From Apostichopus japonicus (lineage: Eukaryota; Echinodermata; Holothuroidea; Aspidochirotida; Stichopodidae): a DNA stretch of 64,000 nucleotides. Position 1 is the stretch's first letter, and the number at the start of each line of letters is the position of its first letter. Shown one piece after another: positions 9,941 through 44,526 of this stretch. Position numbers and translations under genes: made by a program. The notes beneath the pieces were generated by a model that made no database searches, was not told the origin of the DNA, and saw nothing but the letters and a program-made list of their open reading frames with translations. The stretch spans positions 9,847,499 to 9,911,498 of the forward strand of contig NC_092565.1 in assembly GCF_037975245.1 (NCBI RefSeq). Reading direction: 5' to 3'.

Positions 9941-9971
<31 letters not shown>

Positions 9972-10431
9972 AATGAAAATCTTAATGAGTTGGAAAATCA
10001 AGAACAGTGAAAAAACTTTCAGCCTCCACCGGGATTCAAACCACGGGCCTCCCTCTCTGTACGCGGACACCCTAACCACTAGGCTATGGATGCTGATTGT
10101 ATGTCCAGAGGTTCGAAACGGGTAAGGAAGGTCGTAATTCCACTGTAGGCGTTTGTCACCTGTATCGAACAATACTAGTTCTGTTTTTGGTGACATATTT
10201 TGCCTTACTCTAGAGATCAAACATGATGATGCTAACCAACTCGAAAATCATTTGTGATTCCTAAAGCCGGATCTCGAATGAGATACTTTGAACAGACTTT
10301 ATGTTAATGCAATGGAGGTAAACGACAAAGGCAAATGAATATATATAAATGAAAATCGTAATGAGTTGGAAAATCAAGAACAGTGAAAAAACTTTCAGCC
10401 TCCACCGGGATTCGAACCACAGGCCTCCCGC

Positions 10432-21714: not shown

Positions 21715-22015
21715 CTACCATAATAAAACGAGTGCCCTACTACAACCAGAGAGGTGGGTGAACACACCATCATTATAACCAAGTTGGCACCCACTATCAC
21801 AAGAAGCGAGTAACAGTCCATGCCATCATAAATGGTCACCCACTAGAAGGAGGTCATCCACTACCGCCACAAGTTTGAAGTGGGTGACCCACTTACACCA
21901 CACGGGTGACCCACTGCCATCGCAATTGAGATATGCACTACCACCAAACAGGTGGGTGAACCACTACCGTTCCCATTTCGGGAGATGCACTTACTATCAC
22001 AAATGGATGACTCTG
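21715..22015. repeat. Degenerate minisatellite built on GTGGGTGACCCACTACCAC
   Basis: About ten variants of a 20-30 bp motif, roughly (G)GTGGGTGA(C)CCACTACCA, for example at 21751, 21843, 21879, 21903 and 21950. It ends within about 30 bp of the point where homology with the other GPCR units begins (about 22022). The motif is partly self-complementary (GTGGGTGACCCAC), so hairpins are possible. Confidence 0.6.
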
Positions 22016-22041
22016 GATGTTGCACGATAAGAGCATATGCA

Positions 22042-23532
22042 TTAATGTTTAACTAGTTTCATTACTGCTTTTCGGAAACCTAAATTGGTGACAACGTATA
22101 AGATAGGATTGACTGCGGAATTCGCACACAGAAGAACAAAGAATGCCAAATCAAGCAACGGAGGTAACTGGATCAGTCCCAGAGCGTGTAGTACAACCCC
22201 TATGTAAAATGGCAACCAACAAACTAGGAACACTGATACCAATATGACGACCACCTTGACAGCTTTTGTGCATCCAAACAGCTCATTCTTTTTTTGTTTT
22301 CTTCTTTCACATGTGGCACATTTTGGAGTTTGCGAAATTATACTGATATCATTCCTAGCCACTAGTCCTTTACTTCTCGATGATGATAAGTCCGTTGTTG
22401 AAGTTTGTTGCATTTTAACAATAGAATTAGATACGGACACATTTTGATCATCACTAGTAAGATTATAATCCACGCTACTAACACTGATGCCAATTCTTGA
22501 CGAGACTTCTGAAAGATCACAGTTTTGACCGCGTTTGCCCGTTGTTTCACTTAGTTATCTCTCTGTAACATCATCGAGTTGCGATGATATATTTGGTATC
22601 TCTTTGTCTCCTTTCCTCTCAATATTGTTGTTTTCCAGTTGTCTGCTCGATGCCATCGACGATGTTCCCATTTCGAAATGATCTTTGATATTATCTCGCA
22701 AATCCTTGCTTTTCAAGAGGTCGGTGTCTAAAGTATTAGATGAATCTTCGTGCTGACCACTGTCGTGTAGATGTTGGGTTGTATTGTCACCATGGTGATG
22801 TACCACTTTCTTGTTTCTGGATGTGATTTTATGCTCATTCCTACAAGGAGTCGCAACAATATCAAGGAACTCGCGCCTTCTTTGTATCAAGTGTTTGAGC
22901 ATAAGCGTGTTATAACCCACGAGATGGGAAACGGGTAGAAGAATGTCGAGAGAAAAATTCACCCATACAAACACTGCGTCTGTGACAATTTCATTATTAC
23001 TGCAGAAAGACATAAATTGGTCTCTTTGATCTAGCCAAACATAAAACATGACCGAAATTATTAGTATGACGAAATAAGTGATTAAAACCAGTTTTTTAGC
23101 CATTCTTGGTGTCTGTGTTTTCTTGTGATGTATCACGTCTTTTACCATAAGATATCGATCACGTGATATCAATAGAACCATGTAAATGGATGCAAGAAAA
23201 GCGAAAAATGAAGCCCAAAATGACAAATGGCAAAGTAAATAATTGCTTGACAAATCCGGTGAAATCATGCTTGCAATGCTAACTGGTATGATTATAATTC
23301 CAACCAAAAAATCGGCTATAGCTAAATTGAAAATATAGCAGTTAACTCCAGTTTGCCGAAGTTTTCCGTCTTTACAAAATGCAACTATTGTCACAAAATT
23401 TCCGAAGACAATTATTAGGCCTACTGCAATGAAAGATCCACTAATTAAAAAAGAATAAATAATACCATCGTGTAATACGAAACTGGTCTCGTTTGGTTTC
23501 TCCGTTCGAGAAAGTGATTCACTTTGATCCAT
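22042..23532 (-). pseudogene. Class A GPCR, array copy A, interrupted by a nonsense codon
   Basis: Intronless, 496 codons plus stop if read through. Codon 326 (22557-22555) is TAA where the intact copies have GAA (context ACxGAGAGA then TAA versus GAA), a single base change in the third intracellular loop. Downstream, the frame stays open through TM6, TM7 and the same stop as the other copies, so this is the only lesion. An unsuppressed product would keep TM1-TM5 and part of loop 3 but lose the CWLP and NPxxY motifs. TM1 has two extra residues (AVGLIIVF versus AVIIVL). All other landmarks match copy B. It could be a young pseudogene, a polymorphic allele, a truncated receptor or a sequencing error. 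It is the leftmost copy and lacks the shared 3' spacer. Confidence 0.88.
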
Positions 23533-23712
23533 GATTTACAAAGAAAATATTCAATCTCAGCAGACGACGAGAAGTTAACCAAAATTGATCGATTTACACA
23601 ATGATGAACTGGAGGCTGAAATATACCACCATTACATATCCATTCACCGTGACTATAGGACACATTTATAGAGCTGTTTTGATGCTGTGATTTAGTCTTG
23701 TAATTGAAAGAA

Positions 23713-23772
23713 GTGACGTAAAAATAAGTTCGAATAGTAACGTTTTTAGTAACGACCTCGTGGTCACGTGAC
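23713..23772 (-). promoter_or_regulatory. CRE-like site and CACGTG palindrome upstream of copy A
   Basis: GTGACGTA at 23713-23720 (about 181 bp before the start codon) and the 10 bp palindrome GTCACGTGAC at 23763-23772. Both are kept at matching places upstream of all four copies. GTGACGTA resembles a CREB/ATF half-site and CACGTG is a bHLH E-box; function is inferred. Confidence 0.4.
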
Positions 23773-26297
23773 TGTTAAACATCTTAAAATAATTGAACTC
23801 CATATATGGATGATAATAATGACCATTGTTATGTCCATTACGCTTGTTATTTGAAAATACGAGCTCTTGTAACGAGAAATGAAAAAAAAATCATGCGAGC
23901 ATAAAATCCTCTTCAGGAAGCACTTATAGCTCCTCTCGTGTTTCTCTTGATTGTTTGGGATCGTTGGTTAAAAGCCTCGTGTTTGATCTGCAGGTTTATA
24001 ATGGACCCAATAACCTAAGAATATTAATAAAATACGTTTTACTTTTGACTGAATCACGGTGTAGATTAACTGTTTCATGAAATGTGTTATATAATTGAAA
24101 TAGTGGTGGAGCGATAAAAGCTAGACTCTTCTAATGGATTAACGTCTACGTTTGTTTTAAAAAAAAAGTAATTACAAACAACAAGGATCAGATAAAATAT
24201 AATCACGCAATTTTGTAAATGTGGAAGTGGGCTGGTTGGGGCCAGGGGTCCACCCGGGACGCAATTTTTTCCCAACTAACTGACACTGAAATTATTTCCT
24301 CGATTCTAAGGCCCGCTGACTTTTTTTTACTCGGCTCACGACTCCGTTGGGAAAACACGATCAGGTCTGGAAACTAAAGGATAATATCAGACAGTCTTAG
24401 ACAAACTTATAAATGATTCTCCCCTACCTCCACCCCTACCTCCACCCCTTTCCTTCTCGAAATGTACACAATCCTGGAGACAACCTTTCGGGGGATTTTC
24501 TTTCTAGACATGTTCGAACAAATTTTTAGCTGAATAGCTTAGTAGCTAACAATTTAAATCGTCTGCCAATCAAATTAACAGTGCTTGCTCAGGTTTTGAT
24601 CCATTTTAATATTTTTTAAGGCTATATGTCAAATGGTGAAAATAACGAATAATTCCAGCTGAATAAAGACATGTTTATTCTTTCAGTAACTCACATTAGA
24701 AACTTTGGACCTCTTATAGTCTAGTGTGTTCAACTGTCAAACGGTGTCAATACATCTGCGGAGATTGCTTAGAAGATTATGCAATTAATAAAAATCATTA
24801 GTCAATCATTGTTCAGGTGAGATGAAAAATGTACCTCCTAGAAAACTTACAGCGGAGGAGATTGCAATGATATGCACTTCAAATAGCAACATCACGTGAC
24901 ATACCGGATTTCAAATTATTTGAGGATTCGCTGAATATCGTCCAATTGAAATAGGGAGCTCTTTTTTTTTTCTTTGGCCGTGATCAAACCCACATCTGAA
25001 GAGATCATTTTCTGCTTTATGTGTTAAATTGTACGTAACTATGTTTATATACATATATATTAATATCTTTGCCTATATATTGTCTAAAACGTACAGTATC
25101 TTTCTTGGATTTTGGCCGCATTGCCAACTGATTTTTTTCCCTCAGAACTATGGCTGTATAGTAAACTGGCGAATTGGATGTCCAGAACTTCATATTCCTG
25201 AAAATAATATTAAACTGATGATTATGGAAAGATATGATATCACCGCTTAGAATAAAAAGTACCGTACGATTTTCTATAGGTACATCCTACAACTGGTATA
25301 GACCGCGATATAAAGAGACAAAGGAAATAAATTGGTGTAATGTATGTGCGTATCTATATATCCTTTCCTTTTTTCCAGTAGCATCTATAAATTTCGCTAA
25401 TCTGCATTACACACCGCAGCTCATAAAGCCAGTATATTTCATATTGCCAACAACATGTCACTGTATGATTGGATGACATGTATGGAGACGTTTTTCAGGG
25501 ACCAGGCCGATAAGAACCCGTAATCCATTGGTAAATATTACGAAACAACTGGGCACATATCTGGTTTTGTTGTTTTGTTTCTCTACTACATACGGAATAC
25601 CATTGCGCTGTACACGCAATCGTGCAGCAGTAATGGAAACCGGCTTAAAATTCCAGCTTGTTTTAAAGGATTACAGGTGCTTTAATTGGTACATTTTTCT
25701 TTCTTTCTAATATTGTGATCGTGTATAGGAAATTTTGTTGTTCACCGTGTGATGTATGTTACAGCAATGGATCGATCCTTGACGCGGTTTCACCCAATCA
25801 TAATTATTAGTCGAAATCATTATGATTTAAATCAGTTACTGGAAAAAGAGACAACTGAACGACAGTTGTATTGTTAACTAACTTGTTTCAGCATGTTGCT
25901 TGTTTAAGCCCTGTGGAACGCACCACTGATTTATTGAAGCGGCATTGTTTTAAAAGCTTTGTTATGGTTGTAATGGAAACTGGATCGGTTGTATTAATAG
26001 CACACCTGAACACAGCTTGGTAAGCAAGATGAAACTTTATATCAATGATTTGCGCGACAATTGTGTATATGCAGTCGTTTTGTCGAATACTTCATTACTC
26101 GAGAATACCACGTCATGGCATTTTGACGGCTAATGGTGATTAGAATCTGTTAAGACATTTACATTTTGATGATCTGCGGTGGATTATACATGAATTTTGG
26201 AAGTATGTGCTAGGAAATCGGTATTGTGGAATTAAATTTACCTTGGTTGAAATGTAAGAACAGTGAATGTCTCTGGACGTGGATAAGAGCGTATGCA
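23773..26297. other. Spacer between GPCR copies A and B
   Basis: Homologous to the B-C and C-D spacers but lacking two of their blocks, of about 100 and 150 bp. No gene seen. A frame at 25528-25710 resembling a signal peptide recurs in the other spacers, but it begins with TTG here and its similarity is explained by recent duplication. Confidence 0.6.
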
Positions 26298-27782
26298 TTA
26301 ATGTTTAACTAGTTTCATTACTGCTTTTCGGAAACCTAAATTGGTGACAACGTATAAGATAGGATTGACTGCGGAATTCGCACACAGAAGAACAAAGAAT
26401 GCCAAATCAAGCAACGGAGGTAACTGGATCAGTCCCAGGGCTTGTAGTACAACCCCTATGTAAAATGGCAACCAACAGACTAGGAACACTGATACCAATA
26501 TGACGACCACCTTGACAGCTTTTGTGCATCCAAACAGCTCATTCTTTTTTTGTTTTCTTCTTTCACATGTGGCACATTTTGGAGTTTGCGAAATTATACT
26601 GACATCATTCCTAGCCACTAGTCCTTTACTTCTCGATGATGATAAGTCCGTTGTTGACTTTTGTTGCATTTTAACAATAGAATTAGATACGGACACATTT
26701 TGATCATCACTAGTAAGATTATAATCCACGCTACTAACACTGATGCCAATTCTTGACGAGACTTCTGAAAGATCACAGTTTTGACCGCGTTTGCCCGTTG
26801 TTTCACTTAGTTCTCTCTCAGTAACATCATCGAGTTGCGATGATATTTTTGGTATCTCTTTGTCTCCTTTCCTCTCAATATTGTTGTTTTCCAGTTGTCT
26901 GCTCGATGCCATTGACGAAGTTCCCATTTCGAAATGATCTTTGATATTATCTCGCAAATCCTTGCTATTCAAGAGGTCGGTGTCTAAAGTATTAGATGGA
27001 TCTTCGTGCTGACCACTGTCTTGTAGATGTTGGGTTGTATTGTCACCATGGTGATGCACCACTTTCTTGTTTCTGGATGTGATTTTATGCTCATTCCTAC
27101 AAGGAGTCGCAACAATATCAAGGAACTCGCGCCTTCTTTGTTTCAAGTGTTTGAGCATAAGCGTGTTATAACCCACGAGATGGGAAACGGGTAGAAGAAC
27201 GTCGACAGAAAACGCCACCACTGTATACAATGCGTCTGTGCCAATTTCATCACTACTGCAGTAAGACATAAATCTGCCACTTTGATCTAGCCAAACATAA
27301 ATCATGACCGAAAATATCAGTATGACGAAATAAGTGATTAAAACCATTTTTTTAGCCATTCTTGGTGTCTGCGTTTTCTTGTGATGTATCACGTCTTTTA
27401 CCATAAGATATCGATCACGTGATATCAGTAGAACCATGTAAATGGATGCAAGTAAAGCTAAAAATGAAGGCCAAAATGACAAATGGCAAAATAATAAATT
27501 GCTTGACAAATCCGGTGAAATTATGCTTGCAATGCTAACTGGCATGATTATAATTCCAACCAAAAAATCGGCTATAGCTAAATTGAAAATATAGCAGTTA
27601 ACTCCAGTTTGCCGAAGTTTTCCGTCTTTACAAAATGCAACTATTGTCACAAAATTTCCTAAGACAATTATTACTGCAATGAAAGATCCAATAACTAAAA
27701 AAGAATAAATAATACCATCGTGTAATTCGAAACTGGTCTCGTTTGGTTTCTCCGTTCGAGAAAGTGATTCACTTTGATCCAT
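26298..27782 (-). CDS. Class A (rhodopsin-type) GPCR, array copy B, intact, single exon
   Basis: 494 aa. N-terminus without signal peptide but with an N-glycosylation site (NETS, 14-17). TM1 about 24-50 with GN (Asn43, 1.50); TM2 with LAIADFLVG (Asp72, 2.50); TM3 with Cys99 (3.25) and DRY 123-125; TM4 about 145-165; Cys175 in ECL2; TM5 with Pro198; TM6 with CWLP 436-439; TM7 with NPILY 473-477; then FRKAV of helix 8. Loop 3 is very long (about 200 residues, Ser/Thr- and charge-rich) and ends in CATCERRKQKK before TM6. Position 3.32 is Ser106, not the Asp of amine receptors, and the usual Trp 4.50 is absent, so I do not assign a ligand. Layout recalls muscarinic/histamine-like receptors, but intronless tandem copies suit a lineage-specific, possibly chemosensory, expansion. 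It should couple to G proteins at the plasma membrane. Confidence 0.93.
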   Translation of the reverse strand: MDQSESLSRTEKPNETSFELHDGIIYSFLVIGSFIAVIIVLGNFVTIVAFCKDGKLRQTGVNCYIFNLAIADFLVGIIIMPVSIASIISPDLSSNLLFCHLSFWPSFLALLASIYMVLLISRDRYLMVKDVIHHKKTQTPRMAKKMVLITYFVILIFSVMIYVWLDQSGRFMSYCSSDEIGTDALYTVVAFSVDVLLPVSHLVGYNTLMLKHLKQRRREFLDIVATPCRNEHKITSRNKKVVHHHGDNTTQHLQDSGQHEDPSNTLDTDLLNSKDLRDNIKDHFEMGTSSMASSRQLENNNIERKGDKEIPKISSQLDDVTERELSETTGKRGQNCDLSEVSSRIGISVSSVDYNLTSDDQNVSVSNSIVKMQQKSTTDLSSSRSKGLVARNDVSIISQTPKCATCERRKQKKNELFGCTKAVKVVVILVSVFLVCWLPFYIGVVLQALGLIQLPPLLDLAFFVLLCANSAVNPILYVVTNLGFRKAVMKLVKH

Positions 27783-27962
27783 GATTTACAAGAAAAATGT
27801 CAATCTCAGCATACGACGAGAAGTTAACCAAAACTGATCAATTTACACAATGATGAACTGGAGGCTGAAATATACCACCATTACATATCCATTCACCGCG
27901 ACTAGTAGGAAACATTTATAGAGCTGTTTTGATGCTGTGATTTAGTCTTGTAATTGAAAGAA

Positions 27963-28028
27963 GTGACGTAAAAATAAGTTCGAATAGTAACGTTTAATGG
28001 AAGTAATCCGACCTCGTGGTCACGTGAC
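27963..28028 (-). promoter_or_regulatory. CRE-like site and CACGTG palindrome upstream of copy B
   Basis: GTGACGTA at 27963-27970 (181 bp before the start) and GTCACGTGAC at 28019-28028. Unit B carries an extra 6 bp between them compared with A (AATGGAAGTAATCCG in place of a shorter stretch), yet both motifs are unchanged. Confidence 0.4.
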
Positions 28029-30757
28029 TGTTAAACATCTTAAAATAATTGAACTCCATATATGGATGATAATAATGACCATTGTTATGTCCATTACGCT
28101 TGTTTTTTGAAAATACCAGCTCTTGTAACGAGAAATGAAGAAAAGTCATGCGAACATAAAATCCTCTTCAGAAAACACTTAGCTCCTTTCGTGTTTCTCT
28201 TGATTGTTTGGGATCGTTGGTTAAAAGCCTCGTGTTTGATCTGCAGGTTTATAATGGACACAATAACCTATGTAATATTAATAAAAAACAACGTTTTACT
28301 TTTGACTGAATCACGGTGTAGATTAACTGTTTCATGAAATGTGTTTTATAATTGATATAGTGGTGGAGCGATAAAAGCTAGACTCTTCTAATGGATTAAC
28401 GTCTACGTTTGTTTAAGAAAAAAGTAATAACAAACAACAAGGATCAGATAAAATATAATCACGCAATTTTGTAAATGTGGAAAGTGGGCTGGTTGGGGCC
28501 AGGGGTCCACCCGGGACCCGGCTCAATTAGGTGGTTTGGTGAAACATGAACTGAATAACAATTTATACTAATTAAATAATATGGCCTTCTTACGGATAAA
28601 TGAAGATCAACGAGAGACCCGCTGACTTTTTTTACTCGGCTCACGACTCAGTTGGGAAAACACGATCAGGTCTGGAAACTAAAGGATAATATTAGACAGT
28701 CTTAGACAAACTTATGAATGATTCTCCTCTACCTCCACCCCTACCTTCATCCCTTTCCTTTTCGAAAGGTACACAATCCTGGGGACAACCCTTCGGGGGA
28801 TTTTCTTTCTAGACATGTTTGAACATATTTTTAGCTGAATAGCTTAGTGTTTGAACATATTTTTAGCTGAATAGCTTAGTAGCTAACAATTTAAATCGAC
28901 TGCCAATCAAATTAACAGTGCTTGCTCAGGCTTTGATCCATTTAAATATTTTTTAAGGCTATATGTCAAATGATGAAAATAACGAATAATTCCAGCTGAA
29001 TAAAGACATGTTTTTTCTTTCAGTAACTCACATTGGAAACTTTGGACCTCTTATAGTCTAGTGTTTTAAACTCGCCGTTTCTTGATAAAATAAAAGCTCC
29101 CTGATTAAAGGAAAGAAGCTATATTGGTTATCCACTTTACTTTACCTCCAGCGACAGGATTATAATTACTTGGATGACGCATGCAGCCTTATATGGAAAA
29201 TGAAGATTGAAAAGCAAATGGTCAATACATCTGCGGAGATTGCTTAGAAGATTATGTAATTAATAAAAATCATTAGTCAATCATTGTTCAGGTGAGATGA
29301 AAAATGTACCTCCTAGAAAATTACAGCGGGGGAGATTTCAATGATATGCACTTCAAATAGCAACATCACGTGACATACCGGATTTCAAATTATTTGAGGA
29401 TTCGCTGAATATCGTCCAAATGAAATAGTGAGCCCTTTTTTTTCTTTGGACGTGATCAAACCTTCACCTGAAGAGATCAGTTTCTGCTTTATGTATTTAA
29501 TTGTACATATCTATATTTATATACATATATATTTATATCTAGGCCTATATATTGTCTCTAAAACGTACGGCATCTTTCTTGGATTTTGGCTGCATTACCA
29601 GAAATAATATGGCTGTATAGTAAACTGGCGAATCAGATGTCCAGAACTTCATATTCCTGAAGATAATATTAACCTGATGATTATGGAAAGATATGATATC
29701 ACCGCTTAGAATAAAAAGTACCGTACGGTTTGCTATAGGTGCATCCTACAACTGGTGTAGACCGCGATATAAAGAGACAAAGGAAATTTATTGGTGTAAT
29801 GTATGTGCGTATCTATACTTTCTTTTTTTCCAGTAGCATCAATAAATTTCGTTAATCTGCATTATATACCGCAGCTCATATAGCCAGTATATTCCATATT
29901 GCCAACAACATGTCATTGTATGATTGGATGACATGTATACGGAGGACGTTTATCATGGACAAGGCCTATAAGAACCCGTAATCCATTGGTAAATATTAGG
30001 AAACAATTGGGCACATATCTGGTTTTGTTGTTTTGTTTCTCTATTACATACGGAATACCATTGCGCTGTACATGTAATCGTACAGCTGTAATAGAAACCG
30101 GCTTAAAATTCCAGCTTGTTTTAAAGGATTACAGGTGAATTAATTGGTACATTTTTCTTTCTTTCTAATATTGTGATCATGTAGAGGAAATTTGTTGTTC
30201 ACCGTGTGATGTATCTTACAGCAATGGATCGATCCTTGACGCGGTTTCACGCAGTCATAATTATAAGTCGAAATCATTATGATTTAAATCAGTTACTGGA
30301 AAAAGAGACAACTGAACGACAGTTTTATAGTTAACTTGTTTCAGCATGTTGCCTGTTTAAGTCCTGTGGAATGCACCACTTATTTATTGAAGCGGCATTG
30401 TTTTAAAAGCTTTTTTATGGTTGCCATGGAAATTCGGTCGTTTGTACTGATAGGACACCTGAACACAGCTTGGTAAGCAAGATGAAACTTTATATCAATG
30501 ATTTGCGCGACAATTGTGTATATGCAGTCGTTTTGTCGAAAACTTCATTACTCGAGAATACCACGTCGTTGCATTTTGACGGCATAATGGTGATTAGAAT
30601 CTATTAAGACATTTACATATTGATGATCTGCGGTGGATTATACATGAATTTTGGAAGTATGTGCTAGGAAATCGGTATTGTGGAATTAAATTTACCTTCA
30701 AGTTGGTTGAAATGTAAGAACAGTGAATGTCTCTGGACGTGGATAAGAGCGTATGCA
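28029..30757. other. Spacer between GPCR copies B and C
   Basis: Full-length spacer of the tandem unit. Contains a fresh 32 bp tandem duplication (GTTTGAACATATTTTTAGCT...) at about 28818-28881 not seen in the other spacers. No gene seen; short frames here are shared only through duplication. Confidence 0.6.
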
Positions 30758-32239
30758 TTAATGTTTAACTAGTTTCATTACTGCTTTTCGGAAACCTAAA
30801 TTGGTGACAACGTATAAGATAGGATTGACTGCGGAATTCGCACACAGAAGAACAAAGAATGCCAAATCAAGCAACGGAGGTAACTGGATCAGTCCCAGAG
30901 CGTGTAGTACAAGCCCTATGTAAAATGGCAACCAACAGACTAGGAACACTGATACCAATATGACGACCACCTTGACAGCTTTTGTGCATCCAAACAGCTC
31001 ATTCTTTTTTTGTTTTCTTCTTTCACATGTGGCACATTTTGGAGTTGGCGAAATTATACTGATATCATTCCTAGCCACTAGTCCATTACTTCTCGATGGT
31101 GATAAGTCCGTTGTTGAATTTTGTATTTTAACATTAGAATTAGATACGGACACATTTTGATCATCACTAGTAAGATGATAACCCACGCTACTAACACTGT
31201 TGCCAATTCTTGACGAGTCTTCTGAAAGATCACAGTTTTGACCGCGTTTGCCAGTTGTTTCACTTAGTTCTCTCTCTGTAGCATCACCGAGTTGCGATGT
31301 TATATTTGGTACCTCTTTGTCTCCTTTCCTCTCAATGTTGTTGTTTTCCAGTTGTCTGCTCGATGCCATCGACGATGTTCCCATTTCGAAATGATCTTTG
31401 ATATTATCTCGCAAATCCTTGCTTTTCAAGAGGTCGGTGTCTAAAGTATTAGATGAATCTTCGTGCTGACCACTGTCGTGTAGTTGTTGGGTTGTATTGT
31501 CACCATGGTGATGTACCACTTTCTTGTTTCTGGATGTGATTTTATGCTCATTCCTACAAGGAGTCGCAACAATATCAAGGAACTGGCGCCTTCTTTGTAT
31601 CAAGTGTTTGAGCATAAGCGTGTTATAACCCACGAGATGGGAAACGGGTAGAAGAACGTCGACAGAAAAATTCACCCCTACAAACACTGCGTCTGTGACA
31701 ATTTCATTACTACTGCAGTAAGACATAAATCTGTCACTTTGATCTAGCAAAACATAAAACATGACCGAAAATATCAGTATGACGAAATAAGTGATTAAAA
31801 CCAGTTTTTTAGCCATTCTTGGTGTCTGCGTTTTCTTGTGATGTATCACGTCTTTTACCATAAGATATCGATCACGTGATATCAGTAGAACCATGTAAAT
31901 GGATGCATGTAAAGCGAAATATGAAGGCCAAAATGACAAATGACAAAATAAATAATTGCTTGGCAAATCCGGTGAAATCATGCTTGCAATGCTAACTGGC
32001 ATGGTTATAATTCCAACCAAAAAATCGGCTATAGCTAAATTGAAAATATAGCAGTTAACTCCAGTTTGCCGAAGTTTTCCGTCTTTACAAAATGCAACTA
32101 TTGTCACAAAATTTCCTAAGACAATTATTACTACAATGAAAGATCCAATAACTGAAAAAGAATAAATAATACCACCGTGTAATACGAAACTGGTCTCGTT
32201 TGGTTTCTCCGTTCGAGAAAGTGATTCACTTTGATCCAT
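30758..32239 (-). CDS. Class A GPCR, array copy C, intact, single exon
   Basis: 493 aa, collinear with copy B and with all class A landmarks (GN, LAIADFLVG, Cys 3.25, DRY, ECL2 Cys, LLP in TM5, CWLP, NPILY). Distinct residues cluster in TM1 (YSFSVIGSFIVV), TM3 (WPSYFALHAS), the end of TM4 (FYVLLDQ) and the start of TM5 (DAVFVGVNFS). TM5 matches copy A rather than its neighbours B and D. Loop 3 is one residue shorter (VKIQNSTT), with a few private changes (DATEREL, VPNITSQLG). The promoter block is as in the other units. Ligand unknown. A start at this ATG fits all copies, and no upstream exon is needed. Confidence 0.93.
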   Translation of the reverse strand: MDQSESLSRTEKPNETSFVLHGGIIYSFSVIGSFIVVIIVLGNFVTIVAFCKDGKLRQTGVNCYIFNLAIADFLVGIITMPVSIASMISPDLPSNYLFCHLSFWPSYFALHASIYMVLLISRDRYLMVKDVIHHKKTQTPRMAKKLVLITYFVILIFSVMFYVLLDQSDRFMSYCSSNEIVTDAVFVGVNFSVDVLLPVSHLVGYNTLMLKHLIQRRRQFLDIVATPCRNEHKITSRNKKVVHHHGDNTTQQLHDSGQHEDSSNTLDTDLLKSKDLRDNIKDHFEMGTSSMASSRQLENNNIERKGDKEVPNITSQLGDATERELSETTGKRGQNCDLSEDSSRIGNSVSSVGYHLTSDDQNVSVSNSNVKIQNSTTDLSPSRSNGLVARNDISIISPTPKCATCERRKQKKNELFGCTKAVKVVVILVSVFLVCWLPFYIGLVLHALGLIQLPPLLDLAFFVLLCANSAVNPILYVVTNLGFRKAVMKLVKH

Positions 32240-32419
32240 GATTTACAAGAAAAATATTCAATCTCAGCATACGACGAGAAGTTAACCAAAATTGATCGAT
32301 TTACACAATGATGAACTGGAGGCTGAAATATACCACCATTACATATCCATTCACCGTGACTATAGGACACATTTATAGAGCTGTTTTGATGCTGTGATTT
32401 AGTCTTGTAATTGAAAGAA

Positions 32420-32485
32420 GTGACGTAAAAATAAGTTCGAATAGTAATGTTTAATGGATGTGATCCGACCTCGTGGTCACGTGAC
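32420..32485 (-). promoter_or_regulatory. CRE-like site and CACGTG palindrome upstream of copy C
   Basis: GTGACGTA at 32420-32427 (181 bp before the start) and GTCACGTGAC at 32476-32485, at the same spacing as in units B and D. Confidence 0.4.
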
Positions 32486-35190
32486 TGTTAAACATCTTAA
32501 AATAATTGAACTCCATATATGGATGATAATAATGACCATTGTTATGTCCATTACGCTTGTTTTTTGAAAATACCAGCTCTTGTAACGAGAAATGAAGAAA
32601 AGTCATGCGAACATAAAATCCTCTTCAGAAAACACTTAGCTCCTTTCGTGTTTCTCTTGATTGTTTGGGTCGTTTGGTTAAAAGCCTCGTGTTTGATCTG
32701 CAGGTTTATAATGACCCAATAACCTATGTAATATTAATAAAAAACAACGTTTTACTTTTGACTGAATCACGGTGTAGATCAACTGTTTCATGAAATGTGT
32801 TTTATAATTGATATAGTGGTGGAGCGATAAAAGCTAGACTCTTCTAATGGATTAACGTCTACGTTTGTTTAAGAAAAAAGTAATAACAAACAACAAGGAT
32901 CAGATAAAATATAATCACGCAATTTTGTAAATGTGGAAAGTGGGCTGGATGGGGCCAGGGGTCCACCCGGGACACGGCTCAATTAGGTGGTTAGGTGAAA
33001 CATGAACTGAATAACAATTTATACTAATTAAATAATATGGCCTTCTTACGGATAAATGAAGATCAACGAGAGATCCGCTGACTTTTTTTACTCGGCTCAC
33101 GACTCAGTTGGGAAAACACGATCAGGTCTGGAAACTAAAGGATAATATAAGACAGTCTTAGACAAACTTATGAATGATTCTCCCCTACCTCCACCCCTAC
33201 CTTCACCCCTTTCCTTTTCGAAAGGTACACAATCCTGGGGACAACCTTTCGGGGGATTTTCTTTCTAGACATGTTGGAACATATTTTTAGCTGAATAGCT
33301 TAGTAGCTAACAATTTAAATCGACTGCCAATCAAATTAACAGTGCTTGCTCAGGCTTTGATCCATTTAAATATTTTTTAAGGCTATATGTCAAATGATGA
33401 AAATAACGTATAATTCCAGCTGAATAAAGACATGTTTATTCTTTCAGTAACTCACATTGGAAACTTTGGACCTCTTATAGTCTAGTGAGTTCAACTCGCC
33501 GTTTCTTGATAAAATAAAATCTCCCTGATTAAAGGAAAGAAGCTTATTTGTTATCCACTCTACTTTACCTCCAGCGACAGGATTATAATTACTTGGATGA
33601 CGCATACAGCTTTATATGGAAAATGAAGATTGAAATGCAAATGGTCAATACATCTGCGGAGATTGCTTAGAAGATTATGTAATTAATAAAAATCATTAGT
33701 CAATCAATTGTTCAGGTGAGATGAAAAATGTACCTCCTAAAAACTTACAGCGGAGGAGATTGCAATGATATGCACTTCAAATAGCAACATCGCGTGACAT
33801 ACCGGATTTCAAATTATTTGAGGATTCGCTGAATATCGTCCAACTGAAATAGGGAGCTCTTTTTTTTCTTTGGACGTGATCAACCCCACATCTGAAGAGA
33901 CCATTTTCTGCTTTATGTGTTTAATTGTACATAACTATGTTTATATACATATATATTTATATCTTTGCCTATTTATTGTCTAAAACGCACAGTATCTTTC
34001 TTGGATCTTGGACGCATTACAAACTGATTTTTTTTTCCTCAGAACTATGGCTGTATAGTAAACTGGCGAATTGGACGTCTAGAACTTCATATTCCTGAAG
34101 ATAATATTAAACTGATGATTATGGAAAGATATGATATCACCGCGTAGAATAAAAAGTACCGTACGATTTGCTACAGGTGCATCCTACAACTGGTATAGAC
34201 CGCGATATAAAGAGACAAAGGAAATAAATTGGTGTAATGTATGTGCGTATCAATACTTTTTTTCCAGTAGCATCTATAAATTTCGTTAATCTGCATTATA
34301 TACCGCAGCTCATATAGCCAGTATATTCCATATTGCCAACAACATGTCATTGTATGATTGGATGACATGTATACGGAGGACGTTTATCAGGGACTAGGCC
34401 TATATATAAGAACCCGTAATCCATTGGTAAATATTACGAAACAATTGGGCACATATCTGGTTTTGTTGTTTGGTTTCTCTACTACATACGGAATACCATT
34501 GCGCTGTACATGCAATCATGCAGCAGTAATAGAAACCGGCTTAAAATTCCAGCTTGTTTTAAAGGATTACAGGTGCTTTAATTGGTACATTTTTCTTCCT
34601 TTCTAATATTGTGATCGTGTATAGGAAATTTTGTTGTTCACCGTGTGATGTATGTTACAGCAATGGATCGATCCTTGACGCGGTTTCACCCAATCATAAT
34701 TATTAGTCGAAATCTTTATGATTTAAATCAGTTACTGGAAAAAGAGACAACTGAACGACAGTTTTATTGGTAACTTGTTTCAGCATGTTGCCTGTTTAAG
34801 TCCTGTGGAATGCACCACTTATTTATTGAAGCGGCATTGTTTTAATAGCTTTGTTATGGTTGTAATGGAAACTGGATCGGTTGTATTAATAGCACACCTG
34901 AACACAGCTTGGTAAGCAAGATGAAACTTTATATCAATGATTTGCGCGACAATTGTGTATATGCAGTCGTTTTGTCGAATACTTCATTACTCGAGAATAC
35001 CACGTCGTTGCATTTTGACGGCATAATGGTGATTAGAATCTGTTAAGACATTTACATTTTGATGATCTGCGGTGGATTATACATGAATTTTGGAAGTATG
35101 TGCTAGGAAATCGGTATTGTGGAATTAAATTGACTGTGGTTGAAATGTAAGAACATTGAATGTCTCTGGACGTGGATAAGAGCGTATGCA
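32486..35190. other. Spacer between GPCR copies C and D
   Basis: Full-length spacer aligned with the B-C spacer, including the 100 and 150 bp blocks missing from A-B. A frame at 34358-34606 has an ATG and a hydrophobic stretch, but the matching frames in the other spacers lack the ATG, so I do not call a gene. Confidence 0.6.
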
Positions 35191-36675
35191 TTAATATTTA
35201 ACCAGTTTCATTACTGCTTTTCGGAAACCTAAATTGGTGACAACGTATAAGATAGGATTGACTGCGGAATTCGCACACACAAGAACAAAGAATGCCAAAT
35301 CAAGCAACGGAGGTAACTCGATCATTCCCAGAGCGTGTAGTACAAGCCCTATGTAAAATGGCAACCAACAGACTAGGAACACTGATACCAATATGACGAC
35401 CACCTTGACAGCTTTTGTGCATCCAAACAGCTCATTCTTTTTTTGTTTTCTTCTTTCACATGTGGCACATTTTAGAGTTGGCGAAATTATACTGATATTC
35501 CTAGCCACTAGTCCATTACTTCTCGATGATGAGAAGTCCGTTGTTGAATTTTGTTGTATTTTAACATTAAAATTAGATACGGACACATTTTGATCATCAC
35601 TAGTAAGATGATAACCCACGCTACTAACACTGTTGCCAATTCTTGACGAGACTTCTGAAAGATCACAGTTTTGACCGCGTTTGCCCGTTGTTTCACTTAG
35701 TTCTCTCTCTGTAACATCATCGATTAGCGATGATATTTTTGTTATCTCTTTGTCTCCTTTCCTCTCAATATTGTTGTTTTCCAGTTGTCTGCTCGATGCC
35801 ATCGACGATGTTCCCATTTCGAAATGATCTTTGATATTATCTCGCAAATCCTTGCTTTTCAAGAGGTCGGTGTCTAAAGTATTAGATGAATCTTCGTGCT
35901 GACCACTGTCGTGTAGATGTTGGGTTGTATACTTGTCACCATGGTGATGTACCACTTTCTTGTTTCTGGATGTGATTTTATGCTCATTCCTACAAGGAGT
36001 CGCAACAATATCAAGGAACTCGCGCCTTCTTTGTATCAAGTGTTTGAGCATAAGCGTGTTATAACCCACGAGATGGGAAACGGGTAGAAGAACGTCGACA
36101 GAAAACGTCACCACTGTATACAATGCGTCTGTGACAATTTCATTATTACTGCAGAAAGACATAAATCTGTCACTTTGATCCAGCCAAACATAAATCATGA
36201 CCGAAAATATCAGTATGACGAAATAAGTGATTGAAACCAGTTTTTTAGCCATTCTTGGTGTCTGCGTTTTCTTGTGATGTATCACGTCTTTTACCATAAG
36301 ATATCGATCACGTGATATCAGTAGAACCATGTAAATGGATGCAAGTAAAGCTAAAAATGAAGCCCAAAATGACAAATGGCAAAATAAATAATTGCCTGAC
36401 AAATCCGGTGAAATTATGCTCGCAATGCTAACTGGCATGATTATAATTCCCACCAAAAAATCGGCTATAGCTAAATTGAAAATATAGCAGTTAACTCCAG
36501 TTTGCCGAAGTTTTCCGTCTTTACAAAATGCAACTATTGTCACAAAATTTCCTAAGACAATTATTACTGCAATAAAAGATCCAATAACTAAAAAAGAATA
36601 AATAATACCATCGTGTATTACGAAACTGGTCTCGTTTGGTTTCTCCGTTCGAGAAAGTGATTCACTTTGATTCAT
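35191..36675 (-). CDS. Class A GPCR, array copy D, intact, single exon
   Basis: 494 aa, collinear with copies B and C; N-terminus MNQSES instead of MDQSES. All class A landmarks are present, including DRY, CWLP and NPILY. TM5 starts DALYTVVTFS like copy B, whereas ECL2 (MSFCSNNEI) matches copy A, a mosaic of features. Private changes include LVSITYF in TM4, LGMIELPP in ECL3 and FVLVCANS in TM7, and the protein ends VKY rather than VKH. Loop 3 has one inserted residue (HGDKYTTQ, 3 bp) and one deleted (ARNISII). It is the most upstream copy, next to the array boundary and the SDR gene. Ligand unknown. Confidence 0.93.
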   Translation of the reverse strand: MNQSESLSRTEKPNETSFVIHDGIIYSFLVIGSFIAVIIVLGNFVTIVAFCKDGKLRQTGVNCYIFNLAIADFLVGIIIMPVSIASIISPDLSGNYLFCHLSFWASFLALLASIYMVLLISRDRYLMVKDVIHHKKTQTPRMAKKLVSITYFVILIFSVMIYVWLDQSDRFMSFCSNNEIVTDALYTVVTFSVDVLLPVSHLVGYNTLMLKHLIQRRREFLDIVATPCRNEHKITSRNKKVVHHHGDKYTTQHLHDSGQHEDSSNTLDTDLLKSKDLRDNIKDHFEMGTSSMASSRQLENNNIERKGDKEITKISSLIDDVTERELSETTGKRGQNCDLSEVSSRIGNSVSSVGYHLTSDDQNVSVSNFNVKIQQNSTTDFSSSRSNGLVARNISIISPTLKCATCERRKQKKNELFGCTKAVKVVVILVSVFLVCWLPFYIGLVLHALGMIELPPLLDLAFFVLVCANSAVNPILYVVTNLGFRKAVMKLVKY

Positions 36676-36856
36676 GATTTACAAAGAAAATATTCAATCT
36701 CAGCAGACGACGAGAAGTTAACCAAAACTGATCAATTTACACAATGATAAACTGGAGGCTGAAATATACCACCATTACATATCCATTCACCGCGACTAGT
36801 AGGAAACATTTATAGAGCTGTTTTGATGCTGTGATTTAGTCTTGTAATTGAAAGAA

Positions 36857-36922
36857 GTGACGTAAAAATAAGTTCGAATAGTGACGTTTAATGGATGTAA
36901 TCCGACCTCGTGGTCACGTGAC
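36857..36922 (-). promoter_or_regulatory. CRE-like site and CACGTG palindrome upstream of copy D
   Basis: GTGACGTA at 36857-36864 (182 bp before the start) and GTCACGTGAC at 36913-36922, as in the other units. Confidence 0.4.
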
Positions 36923-37668
36923 TGTTAAACATCTTAAAATAATTGAACTCCATATATGGATGATAATAATGACCATTATTATGTCCATTACCCTTGTTAT
37001 TTGAAAATACGAGCTCTTGTAACGAGAAATGAAAAACTTCATGCGAGCGTAAACTCCTCTTCAAAAAGCACTTAGCTCCTTTCATGTTTCTCTTGATATG
37101 CTGTTGTTGAGGTTGTTTGGTAAAAAGCTTCGTGTTGGATCTGCAGGTTTATAATGACCTAATAACCTATGTATTATAAGAAAACAACGTTTTGCTTTTG
37201 ACTGAATCACGGTGTAGATTAACTGTTTCATGAAATGTGTTTTATAATTGAAATAGTGGTGGAGCGATAAAAGCTAGACTCTTCTAATGGATGAACGTCT
37301 ACGTTTGTTTAAAAAAGAAGTAATAGCAAACAACAAGGATCAGATTAAATATAATCACGCAATTTCGTGATGTGGAAAGTGGGCTGGATGGGGCCAGGGG
37401 TCCACCCGGGACCCGGCTCAATTAGGTGGTTTGGTGAAACATGAACTGAATAACAATTTATACTTATTAAATAATATGGCCTTCTTACAGATAAATGAAG
37501 ATCAACGAGAGGCCCGCTGACTTTTTTTACTCGGCTCACGACTCAGTTGGAAAAACACGATCAGGTCTGGAAACTAAAGGATAATATTAGACAGTCTTAG
37601 ACAAACTTCTGAATGATTCTCCCCTACCTCCACCCTTTCCTTTTTGAAATCCGTAGCATGACATAATG

Positions 37669-38587
37669 TTACTTAAGAAATTCCGCAGAGGTTGCAGCCA
37701 TTTGGTTCCCTGTCGGATCCACGAGCACCGTCCTCACTGAAGACTCGACGTGAAGACTGGTTTGGATACATACATCAGGCTTTTCCTCCTTAACGCATTC
37801 CTTTATCACCTCTGCGACATCTTTACCCGTTTGCAGTTGTTTCTCGTACAGAGGGGCGTAGTTTGCCATGAACTGCTCCTGGAGGGCTTTAGCCAGCGGA
37901 TCTGTCGCGGTACTTTCTTCTTTAGTCATGCCTTGAACGGATCCTAGCTTGTTACTCGAAACGTTCGTTGCAAAAGCAGTCTCCACTGGACCAGGTTGAA
38001 TACTGGTCACGCTAAAATAATATAAAGATAAATAAGGGTATAAGGAAGAGAGAAACATGGAGCGAGAATGATCAGAGTCGGTGATCCCGGGGATCAAAAG
38101 GGGCACGTTACCCCAACCCTTCCCTATCAGGTTTTTGAAAACCATGAAAGTTCCCCATTTCATAAATTTGTAGATGAAACTTAACTCTTTTTTGATGTTG
38201 CTATTTTGGTAATTTTAAAAATGGCATTTTTGTTACTTCATATGCCTTTGTTGATAATGTAAGGAAAAGTGTAAATAAAATGTACCCTGATGTCATCTAA
38301 ACAATGTTGCTTTGTTGAAAAACATTCAGATAGAGGGGTTTGTAGTAGAGAATACCCGAGGATCACTTTTGTCGGGAAGTTTTAAGGTAATTTTGTGCAT
38401 TGCCGATTCAAATCGAAGTCAAATGTCCGACTGCCTCTTAGAGGTTGGAAACTACAACAACAACAAAATGAAAAAACTAAAAAAGGAGCTCACCTGATAT
38501 TAAATTGACGAAGATAAGGCGCCAAACACCCGACTAAGCCTTCTATAGCAAACTTAGAGGCTGCGTAGAAATCACAGAACATGGGAG
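37669..38587 (-). CDS. Short-chain dehydrogenase/reductase, RDH8 / HSD17B1-like, last two exons only
   Basis: Exons on the minus strand: 38587-38494 (94 bp) and 38011-37669 (343 bp with stop), joined by a GT-AG intron in phase 2. The first encodes DFYAASKFAIEGLVGCLAPY, which holds the SDR catalytic Tyr-x-x-x-Lys. The second continues VTSIQPGPVETAF, the PGPV/T motif following strand 6 that contacts the cofactor, then a C-terminal region with QTGKDVAEVIKECV and IQTS. Sequence after the catalytic motif resembles retinol dehydrogenase 8 and 17-beta-hydroxysteroid dehydrogenase 1, enzymes that use NADP(H) to interconvert retinoids or steroids. The Rossmann N-terminus (TGxxxGIG) and the Ser of the triad are not found in the 2 kb upstream (38588-40768), beyond which lies a large transposon. 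The gene may have distant exons or be a truncated remnant. The stop lies only about 20 bp from the GPCR array boundary. Confidence 0.8.
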
Positions 38588-40768: not shown

Positions 40769-41690
40769 TAGTCAGGTGGCTTAGCAACAATTTTTAGGCT
40801 TAACGTTACCGGCCGGACAAAAGTACCAAATTTGGCATGGAGTTTCTTTTCGACCTATCTATCGAATTTATCCGTGGAACCCACTTTATCGGTTCCGATT
40901 TTTCAAGATGGCGGCCAAAATCCAAGATGGCCGCCAGAAAAAAAGGAAATGTCATATATCTGGCTGTAAAAATCGGAGATGAACAAATGAGGGGTCAATT
41001 CAGGTGTTTCCGGGGTCACTGAAACAGATGATGATCATGGCATGTTGCTTGAGTAACCCACTTCCAAGATGGCGGCCAAAATCCAAGATGGCCGCCAGAA
41101 AAAAACGAATATATCTGGCTGTAAAAATCGGAGATGAACAAATGAGGGGTCAATTAAGGTGTTTCCGAGCTCACTGAAACAGATGATGGTCATGGTATGT
41201 TGCTTGGGCCACCCACTTCCAAGATGGCGGCCAGAATCCAAGATGGCCCCCTGGAAAAAAAAAGGAAATTTCATATATATTCAATCCCCAGACCCCCTGT
41301 GCCCTTTTCTGATCGGGACCATCAAACCTTCCGTCCTCAAACATGTAAATGAAACCGGGCTTGCACCCTGACTATATGTTATGGCTGGTATTCTAATTGT
41401 GTCACTTTGGCTCAGGAAGCCACTTAGGACTTATTGGGGAACTTTGAGGTGTGATCGACCGTGGATAGACACTGCCGCAAACCCGTTATTATATGGGAGT
41501 TACGAGTGTCATGTAAGACTGATTACATTGAGTTAACTATATAATAGGGTAACTTGAGGGAAAACAGACCAGATGTGAATACCGACTCATTGAGAGATTT
41601 TGTAGGATTGTGCACCCTTCATAAACACAACTTCAATTGTGCGAACAACACATGCTAAGTCAGGTCACTAGTCATCTGAGGTATTTAGGT
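40769..41690 (+). mobile_element. Left arm of a palindromic DNA transposon-like element
   Basis: Begins TAGTCAGGTGGCTTAGCAAC at 40769; the mirror sequence ends the right arm at 44526. The two arms are inverted copies over about 0.9 kb, including CCGGCCGGAC, the AACCCACTTTATCGGTTCCG block and several AAGATGGCGGCC / AAGATGGCCGCC blocks repeated at about 230-240 bp intervals. A TA at each outer edge would fit a TA target-site duplication. It has no transposase frame; the frames in each arm are reverse-complement mirror copies, not genes. Confidence 0.8.
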
Positions 41691-41857
41691 CGTTCTTTTC
41701 GAACCTGTACTCCAGGGCTGCTATTAGCAAGGATCTCCTGGAAGACTTGTTGTCTGGTATAGACAAGCCCCCCCCCCCCCCTTCATAAACACATATCACA
41801 TCTGCGAACAACACACGCTAAGTCGGGTCACTAGTCATCTGAGGTCAACCAATAACA
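41671..41857 (+). mobile_element. Extra inner duplication in the left arm
   Basis: After the shared arm segment (to CATCTGAGG at about 41690) comes a stretch of about 90 bp (to AGACAAGCCCC at 41772) that is the inverted copy of 43520-43625, the 5' end of the LINE. A second direct copy of the arm segment TTCATAAACAC...CATCTGAGG follows at 41783-41857. So a short 5' LINE piece in plus orientation sits here, cut at a poly-C run, opposite the main minus-strand LINE. Confidence 0.6.
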
Positions 41858-43625
41858 CTAATAACCAAAACAACAACAATAACAACCAATAACACCAATA
41901 ATGAAGGCGTGAAACCATCATTCCCACACCAACCGGACAAAGGGACACTCCAGCAAAAGGTGTTGCATAGTCCTAATGGCTTTACAGCCCACACAGGGAC
42001 AAATCCCATAACCTAATCGCCACCTGACTAGGCGAAAATGGTTAGTGATGAGGACCCCTTGTGCAATCCTCCTCGCGAAGTCCCGGAGACGGCTATCTAG
42101 TGACTTACAACACACAGAACACCACACATCTGGAGAGATGGCGGTTTGGCAAGCCGAGGGGGCCACGTTAAGCAGAACATCTGGCCCACCCTCCTCTTTG
42201 ATTCTACAAAGTGAGTCACCAATCTGAGTATATACACCCCGAAGAGCGTGTCGCCTTTGGCCGGTTATTGGAAAAGGATCTGGGCCAGTAGTGGCGAAAA
42301 AGAAAACCACCCCAGAACCTAACAAAAAAGGCAAACGAGGGATTCTCAAACGCAACGAAAAAACCTTTCAAAAGGAGTTAGCGCAGTTAAGATGGTAGGT
42401 GGACCAAACCATGCCCACCCGCTCAAGGGGGTCATTTACAGAACAGTCCTTTTGAGAAGGTTTGGTTTGCACGTTCCCCAAATGAAATAAAAAATGATCC
42501 TCTCCAATCGCACCAAGGAATAATCTGGTGCAGCGATCAACGTACCAGGATACCAAAGGAGAGGAAAAAATAAAACGATTGACAACTGTAACCTTCCCAT
42601 GGAGGGAGAGTCACCTCCAATTGAATGTGTCGAGCCTTGCCTCCACCTGATCAGCCTTCTCGGCCTAAGTGGTGGCCTCCGGGGCACCATAACCTAGCCA
42701 GATGCCGATTACCCTGATCATGACATCTGACCAAGTAACATGGAACGGGAGGGATTGGCCGCACAAACCTCCTGAATGCAGCCCTTCGGTCTTGGACTTG
42801 TTAAGCCTGGCACCATAGCCTCTTAGAAGGTGGCCAAAACCTTCGATAAAGGCTTGAAGGAGACGAGGTCCGACACAATACAAGTGACGTCATCGGCATA
42901 TTGCACGCATTTAACTCTAGCCCCACCCGGTACATTGAAAGGTCGAAACCCCAAGCATCTGTCCAGCGAGGTACTGAGCGTTTCGCTGAAGAGAACATAC
43001 AACAACGGGGAGAGGGGACAACCCTGACGGACTCCCCTTCGAACCGGGGAGGGACCAGAAGTAAATCCGTTAACAGTGACCATGCTCGTGACGTCCTTAT
43101 ATAGTAACGAGAACCAACGAATAAACACTGAGCTCAATCCGAAGGACTCGCACAGCGCAAGTCTGGAGAGGACCTACAATATCCGGCATCACATTCGCTA
43201 AGCGATTTCCTAATGCTTTGGCCAGGATTTTGTAGTCCAGATTTAACAGCGTTATTGTACGCCTATTAGGGTTCAAAGGGTCTCCCGACTTTGGGAGGAG
43301 AACAATATTTCCAGCCCTCTGTGTTTGGCTCATGTAACTCAACTGGAAAGCGTTAGCGAACACGTCTCTAAAGTCCCCACCGAGAACCTCCCAGAAGTCC
43401 TATATAACTCAGCAGGGAGGCCATCGGGACCGGGGACTTTCCCTTCTTCATCGCTGCTACCGCTGTCCAGAGCTCACCAACGGAGAGATTCGAACCCAAG
43501 CTATCGTTTTACTATGAGGGGGGGGGGGGGGGCTTGTCTATACCAGACAACAAGTCTTCCTGGAGATCCTCGCAAACAGTAGCCCTGGGGTACAGGTTCA
43601 AAAAGAACGAGTTAAATGCCTCAGA
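41858..43625 (-). mobile_element. Decayed non-LTR retrotransposon (Tx1/L1-like) reverse transcriptase remnant
   Basis: Minus-strand frames, broken by several frameshifts, follow the order of a LINE reverse transcriptase. First is NIVLLPKSGDP with ITLLNLDYKILAKALGNRL (about 43150-43310). Then comes GVRQGCPLSPLLYVLF and the catalytic-type YADD in KCVQYADDVTCIV (about 42870-43030), then GARLNKSKTEGL and IGIWLGYG (about 42690-42800), LLWYPGTLI...ERIIFYFIWG (about 42470-42580), and near the end a Cys-His stretch (CPCVGCKA...HLLLECPF, about 41930-42000) like the zinc-binding domain after such RTs. The 3' end runs into a TTATTG/TTG-rich tail (41902-41848), as LINE tails do. YADDVT and LNxSKT are typical of the Tx1 group. 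No endonuclease was seen, and it is inactive in this form. Confidence 0.8.
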
Positions 43626-44526
43626 TGCCTAGTGACCTGCTTAGCACGTGTTGTTCGCACAATTGACGTTGTGTTTATGAAGGGTGCACAATCCTACAAA
43701 ATCTCTCAATGAGTCGGTATTCACATCTGGTCTGTTTTCCCTCAAGTTACCCTATTATATAGTTAACTCAATGTAATCAGTCTTACATGACACTCGTAAC
43801 TCCCATATAATAACGGGTTTGCGACAGTGTCTATCCACGGTCGATCACACCTCAAAGTTCCCCAATAAGTCCTAAGTGGCTTCCTGAACCAAAGTGACAC
43901 AATTAGAATACCAGCCATAACATATAGTCAGGGTGCAAGCCCGGTTTCATTTACACGTTTGAGGACGGAAGGTTTGATGGTCCCGATCAGAAAAGGGCAC
44001 AGGGGGTCTGGGGATTGAATATATATGAAATTTCCTTTTTTTTTCCAGGGGGCCATCTTGGATTCTGGCCGCCATCTTGGAAGTGGGTGGCCCAAGCAAC
44101 ATACCATGACCATCATCTGTTTCAGTGAGCTCGGAAACACCTTAATTGACCCCTCATTTGTTCATCTCCGATTTTTACAGCCAGATATATGACATTTCGT
44201 TTTTTTCTGGCGGCCATCTTGGATTTTGGCCGCCATCTTGGAAGTGGGTTACTCAAGCAACATGCCATGATCATCATCTGTTTCAGTGACCCCGGAAACA
44301 CCTGAATTGACCCCTCATTTGTTCATCTCCGATTTTTACAGCCAGATATATGACATTTCCTTTTTTTCTGGCGGCCATCTTGGATTTTGGCCGCCATCTT
44401 GAAAAATCGGAACCGATAAAGTGGGTTCCACGGATGAAATCGATAGATAGGTCGAAAAGAAACTCCATGCCAAATTTGGTACTTTTGTCCGGCCGGTAAC
44501 GTTAAAGTTGCTAAGCCACCTGACTA
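43626..44526 (-). mobile_element. Right arm of the palindromic DNA transposon-like element
   Basis: Inverted copy of 40769-41690, ending GTTGCTAAGCCACCTGACTA. The 70-codon frame at 43928-44140 is the same frame as 41159-41371 on the other arm with one residue different, which shows how alike the arms are. The repeated GATGGCGGCC blocks are at 44047-44080, 44212-44243 and 44373-44401. Confidence 0.8.

Follow-up and report, generated by a model that had tools for sequence, protein, structure and literature searches.

A young tandem array of class A receptor genes in Apostichopus japonicus whose copies differ mainly in the outer half of the receptor

The 64,000-nucleotide stretch of Apostichopus japonicus DNA analysed here (the window; C5:9847499-9911498 of a 671.6-Mb, 35-contig genome) contains a tandem array of four copies, A to D, of a class A G-protein-coupled receptor (GPCR) gene. 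The most informative feature of the array, absent from the first-pass annotation of this DNA, is that the amino-acid replacements that distinguish the copies are concentrated in the outer, extracellular half of the receptor. The parts of the array are as follows.

22004..37642, minus strand: entire array, made up of three larger units and a partial one (self-BLASTN blocks 22004-24735, 24746-28747 and 24746-33203 against their partners)
22042..23532, minus strand: copy A, receptor coding sequence with one premature stop (codon 326; 7tm_1), probable pseudogene or segregating null
22555..22557, minus strand: premature stop codon of copy A, in loop 3
23533..24740, minus strand: upstream (promoter-side) spacer of A; its ATG-proximal part is common to all four copies
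24746..26297, minus strand: downstream spacer of B (self-BLASTN)
26298..27782, minus strand: copy B, intact class A GPCR of 494 amino acids (open reading frame and Pfam)
27783..29215, minus strand: upstream spacer of B (self-BLASTN)
29221..30757, minus strand: downstream spacer of C (self-BLASTN)
30758..32239, minus strand: copy C, intact class A GPCR of 493 amino acids (open reading frame and Pfam)
32240..33640, minus strand: upstream spacer of C (self-BLASTN)
33644..35190, minus strand: downstream spacer of D (self-BLASTN)
35191..36675, minus strand: copy D, intact class A GPCR of 494 amino acids (open reading frame and Pfam)
36676..37642, minus strand: upstream spacer of D, truncated where the array ends (self-BLASTN)

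The self-BLASTN matches among the units score thousands of bits and thus are not due to chance, and the start-to-start offsets of 4475 and 4423 bases bear out the earlier description of four units of about 4.3-4.5 kb in one orientation. The earlier statement that the spacers align along their whole length does not hold. The self-match of the copy A unit stops at 22004, 38 bases beyond the final stop codon of A, and A therefore has no downstream spacer; the upstream match of copy D stops at 37642, 967 bases from the D ATG and 27 bases before an adjoining short-chain dehydrogenase (SDR) gene is reached at its stop codon. Where present, the spacers diverge by 2.5-9.0% between copies, and the proposal that the array arose by recent tandem duplication is supported.

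The reading frames of B, C and D are open throughout, and the frame of copy A is open before and after its single in-frame stop. With the stop in loop 3, the product of copy A would end after transmembrane helix 5 (TM5), and copy A is probably a recent casualty; of the four receptor genes first proposed, three thus stand as intact and one as interrupted. The coding sequences of the four copies are 96.2-96.8% identical in nucleotides, and the intact receptors are 91-92% identical. Matches to the Pfam profile 7tm_1 have E-values of 2.6e-39 (B), 1e-40 (C), 6.5e-40 (D) and 1.9e-25 (the open part of A, 325 amino acids), and B, C and D match profile positions 1-260 and carry N1.50, D2.50, DRY, CWxP and NPxxY, which identifies them as class A receptors. 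An in-frame TAA begins six bases ahead of the ATG in all four copies, in agreement with the first-pass description of the genes as intronless, single-exon status here referring to the coding sequence. With residue numbers assigned from motifs, Asp 3.32 is replaced by Ser in all four copies and Trp 4.50 by Thr, as first reported; the array also has Phe at 7.39 and Cys at 7.43, and Asp at 5.46 in all four copies. Loop 3, put earlier at about 200 residues, is indeed long, at about 184 codons in the partition used.

Codons that vary in amino acid make up 37 of the 124 codons of the outer half vs. 6 of the 166 codons of the inner, intracellular half (Fisher 4.3e-10), and the contrast persists when the boundary is shifted by up to 4 residues either way (p 2.7e-10 to 2.8e-8). 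The total is 76 codons with amino-acid variation and 17 with synonymous variation only, of which 37 and 6, respectively, are in the outer half, 6 and 5 in the inner half, 29 and 6 in loop 3, and 4 and 0 in the N-terminus. Mean nonsynonymous and synonymous differences per site (pN and pS) are 0.082 and 0.043 in the outer half, vs. 0.008 and 0.022 in the inner half. The variable positions include 2.57, 2.58, 2.65, 3.33, 3.36, 3.37, 5.38, 5.39, 5.40, 5.42, 6.55 and 6.58; the changes in the inner half are at 1.48, 4.46, 4.48, 5.47, 5.66 and the last residue. For a pocket set of 28 positions defined in PMC3162937, 9 of 28 pocket positions vary, vs. 18 of 143 other transmembrane positions (p 0.02), and 3.33 and 5.42, which are part of the four-residue core pocket described in PMC3478154, both vary in the array.

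The relationships among the copies change along the unit. Up to codon 315, all 14 informative sites reject the grouping AB|CD (favouring AC|BD or AD|BC); from codon 350 on, all 8 informative sites support AB|CD (switch p 3.1e-6). The upstream spacer switches grouping too, and we conclude that gene conversion or unequal crossing-over has occurred between copies. The segment of TM5 at 5.37-5.42 is present as two haplotypes, one in A and C and the other in B and D. All four coding indels are multiples of three and keep the frame.

Tests for selection indicate that diversifying selection on the outer half is likely, not proven. In a codon model with shared branch lengths, omega, the ratio of nonsynonymous to synonymous rates, is 3.54-4.19 for the outer half, 0.32-0.33 for the inner half and 1.55-1.86 for loop 3, and an outer omega of 1 is rejected over three topologies (p 4.9e-8 to 3.5e-6); this pooled test is still significant without codons 187-192 (omega 2.98-3.11, p 4.6e-5 to 1.1e-4). 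Because the gene is mosaic, null simulations were made on mosaic trees, with kappa fixed at 1.6 in fits to simulated data and free in fits to real data. None of 400 such simulations reaches the observed omega of 3.54 or twice-log-likelihood difference of 21.5, and simulations with p<0.05 and omega >1 number 10 of 200 at the lower rate and 1 of 200 at a spacer-like rate (1 of 60 in an earlier run). Site model M2a fits better than M1a on two topologies (p 1.5e-5 and 1.4e-7). On AB|CD, M2a gives a posterior above 0.9 to three sites, 5.39, 5.40 and 5.42; on AC|BD, all variable codons exceed this level, and the model therefore singles out nothing.

Several observations weigh against diversifying selection on the outer half. 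Only four sequences were analysed, and the boundary between outer and inner halves was chosen after the protein alignment was seen. If the outer half is considered alone, variation at pocket positions does not significantly exceed that at other positions (9 of 24 vs. 14 of 56, p 0.29), and loop 3, which binds no ligand, also has omega >1 in the shared model. The pS of the coding sequence, about 0.028, is low relative to the spacer divergence of 0.025-0.090. With the spacer rate taken as neutral, outer omega is only 1.51-1.94 (p 1.3e-5 to 0.0096), and it falls to 1.27-1.45 (p 0.03-0.17) upon removal of TM5 codons 187-192, indicating that much of the spacer-based signal comes from this patch. 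Comparison of raw site counts with the spacers gives p 0.11, or 0.006 upon removal of a badly aligned spacer block, or 0.03 for B-D only; a test on the outer half alone gives p 0.006-0.024, yet yields 7 false positives in 60 runs on mosaic trees.

A comparison with other receptor groups of the same genome covered 12 young paralogue groups (identity of 85% or more), found in a set of 80 sequences that was taken from the best matches and the visible clusters; 2 of 78 fetched GPCR loci (L086 and L087) were dropped for want of an open reading frame that met the rules, and groups below 85% identity were left out, including the pair L017/L036 (outer above inner, p 2.3e-4). The array ranks first of the 12 in the ratio of outer pN to total pS, with 2.93, followed by the pair L026/L034 with 2.21, the other ten groups having 0.04-0.85. 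Outer variation is significantly above inner variation in 4 of the 11 other groups (in a first round, in 4 of 6 other groups, p <0.05); Pro 5.50 was aligned in 66 of the 80 rows, and the partition is therefore unsure for some of the groups compared.

When the genome was searched in six frames with copy C, 87 of 603 candidates were scored, and the counts for large families are minimum values; the close copies among the matches listed are only the four places of the array (91-100% identical); the other matches listed are 21-44% identical, the longest (L005) being 26% identical over residues 23-491. A tblastn search of the 64-kb window with copy C, at E up to 10, finds the four copies and no further remnant, and matches to the downstream spacer in the genome number 3, each inside the array (those of B, C and D). 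All 40 relatives fetched from the matches listed carry a single open reading frame of at least 300 amino acids, and the lineage-specific intronless GPCR expansion proposed in the first-pass annotation fits this lineage-rich set of single-exon GPCRs from the genome. In a midpoint-rooted tree of 44 rows, 7 rows, 5 of them with Asp 3.32, split from 37 rows that include the array (support 99/95). The array stands alone on a stem of 1.8 changes per column, and its exact position within the 37 rows is weakly supported (88/59). Asp 3.32 is found in none of the 33 fetched single-exon non-amine relatives. Position 5.46 in these 33 is Asp in 13, Asn in 15, Glu in 2 and another residue in 3, and Glu occurs there once in the 7 rows of the amine side. 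Two further young receptor groups were observed: the pair L026/L034 (C20, about 10.21 and 10.32 Mb), in which 17 of 123 outer vs. 1 of 183 inner codons vary, and an array of at least 8 young receptor genes with open frames of about 340-385 amino acids (C8:3.57-3.72 Mb, L054-L061).

Rapidly expanded rhodopsin-type GPCRs have been described in echinoderms, namely the surreal-GPCRs of sea urchin, the ApORs of crown-of-thorns and the holothurian OR-l1 to OR-l4 (PMC5442662, PMC7042368, PMC10855541), and tandem GPCR arrays have been described in Apostichopus as well (PMC7042368). The ApORs, 63 in number and 522 amino acids long on average, are by BLAST most like adrenergic-type receptors (PMC5442662). 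As judged from the published descriptions, the array shares with these receptors class A membership, tandem arrangement and similar length (here 493-494 amino acids) and, as with the ApORs, has its nearest matches among amine-type receptors (here by solved structures), and it lies in a large lineage-specific class A expansion, the genome having at least 149 7tm_1 matches, several in clusters (147 of 892 candidates scored). The odorant-receptor motif LxxPxYxxxxxLxxxDxxxxxxxxP (PMC7042368) is half present, with 3 of 6 residues in copy C (L68, D72 and P81) and R57, G60 and N62 where the motif has L, P and Y; for OR-l3 and OR-l4, the same source gives just LxxxD as the pattern. Positive selection has been discussed as a possibility for the ApORs (PMC5442662), and site models on four holothurian clades indicate purifying selection, with omega of 0.12-0.25 (PMC7042368), in contrast to the outer omega >1 of the array. 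The portions of the literature consulted contained no report of outer-half selection in young echinoderm receptor arrays and, for the large echinoderm GPCR expansions, no ligand assignment.

The solved structures that match the array best are aminergic receptors (histamine H3 and H4, beta-1 adrenergic, D2 and 5-HT1; H3 with 81.9 bits, E 4.2e-22), with which it has DRY, CWxP and NPxxY in common. In aminergic receptors, Asp 3.32 holds the amine. The array differs in having Ser at this position, Cys in place of Tyr or Trp at 7.43, and Phe at 7.39. Identity as an amine receptor is rejected by Ser 3.32 in all four copies together with the tree split from receptors with Asp 3.32 (99/95). Vertebrate odorant receptors are likewise single-exon, tandem genes with a fast-evolving binding face, but no odorant receptor is among the nearest structures of the array (best 60 of 591 matches), and the array has a long loop 3 and only half of the odorant-receptor motif.

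We consider it probable that this is a young, locally diversifying array of orphan class A GPCRs of the expanded, chemoreceptor-like kind of echinoderms. Fast change in the outer half with slow change in the inner half suggests adaptation of the individual copies to different chemicals. The same contrast might arise if the copies were redundant, the outer half tolerant of change and the array decaying, an unlikely reading for which the following speaks: copy A carries a stop, loop 3 drifts near the neutral rate (omega 0.66-0.88 with branches fixed from the spacers), and the spacer-based outer excess is small and, without the TM5 patch, not significant at the higher spacer rate. Relaxed constraint fits poorly, however, with the strong conservation of the inner half (omega 0.14-0.15 vs. 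the spacer rate, p <1e-10), with coding indels that are all in frame, and with rejection of outer neutrality by the pooled model; in addition, outer pN/pS is below 1 in 10 of the 11 other young groups, and tolerance alone thus seldom gives the pattern of the array.

It is improbable that the copies all serve a single conserved ligand made by the animal itself (a peptide, a lipid or an amine-like compound), with duplication raising or partitioning expression. The near-identity of promoter-side spacers and of coupling surfaces, and the fixation of Asp 5.46 in all four copies, speak for such a dosage or regulatory array, but replacements at 3.33, 3.36, 3.37, 5.38, 5.39, 5.42 and 6.55 fit poorly with one shared small ligand, and the genome matches listed include no close single-copy relative. 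Even though the array is known from assembled sequence alone, there is very little chance that haplotypes or reads were wrongly joined in tandem: the array has abrupt ends on both sides and the window holds no second copy of either flank, which makes a haplotype-duplication artefact unlikely; the coding sequences differ by 3-4%, the spacers differ by many indels, the pattern is mosaic, and the assembly comprises 35 contigs.

The array stems from tandem copying of one receptor unit. According to the reading of the array as locally diversifying, each receptor would bind a small molecule in a pocket formed by TM2, TM3, TM5 and TM6, and all copies would signal through one shared G-protein interface. 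Unequal crossing-over and gene conversion would supply new pocket combinations, and selection would retain those that widen or retune ligand recognition. A more specific version, which we regard as doubtful, is that short pocket cassettes, TM5 5.37-5.42 foremost, are exchanged between copies by gene conversion, while a fixed Asp or Asn at 5.46, present in 4 of 4 array copies and in 28 of 33 non-amine relatives (30 of 33 counting Glu), replaces Asp 3.32 as the ligand anchor of the family. The site of action would most likely be sensory (tube feet, pedicellariae or tentacles); of the earlier suggestion of an often sensory echinoderm expansion, the expansion fits the single-exon GPCR pool, and the sensory part keeps its status as conjecture. 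B, C and D, which have the coupling half in common and whose differences lie mainly at named positions of the pocket, offer a ready set for ligand finding and specificity mapping. The results also suggest that whole-clade site models, such as those that indicate purifying selection in the holothurian clades described in PMC7042368, can mask diversifying selection among the most recent tandem duplicates.

Outside the array, the last two exons of the adjoining SDR gene are at 38494-38587 and 37669-38011 and, joined, match PF00106 (6.3e-9); apart from these exons once joined, the flanking open reading frames (one large and 10 smaller) have no host Pfam domain. An open reading frame at 58833-62099 on the plus strand encodes a serine-rich product of 1088 amino acids, for which neither Pfam (E up to 1) nor the solved structures (E up to 0.1) gave a match. 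At 40769-44526, two inverted 1-kb repeats (96.4%) enclose fragments of a LINE-like reverse transcriptase on the minus strand, with RVT_1 at 42826-43173 and zf-RVT, below its cut-off, at 41921-42367. At 9659-10224, two tandem 280-base units contain tRNA-like stretches (Rfam tRNA matches at 9741-9813 and 10021-10093, minus strand) and are probably a tRNA-derived short repeat. On the mitochondrial contig (C35, 16,099 bases), 12S, nad1, nad2 and 16S lie on the cox1 strand, nad1 and nad2 being named by reading of translations. This arrangement differs from the inverted one of asteroids; a starfish origin is therefore rejected, and a sea urchin or sea cucumber is more probable. The echinoderm origin proposed at first pass agrees with the mitochondrial code: cox1 scores 504.2 bits with the echinoderm code 9, vs. 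490.7, 486.9, 482.7 and 473.4 bits with codes 24, 21, 4 and 5, and nad5 is also read best with code 9 among three codes tried.

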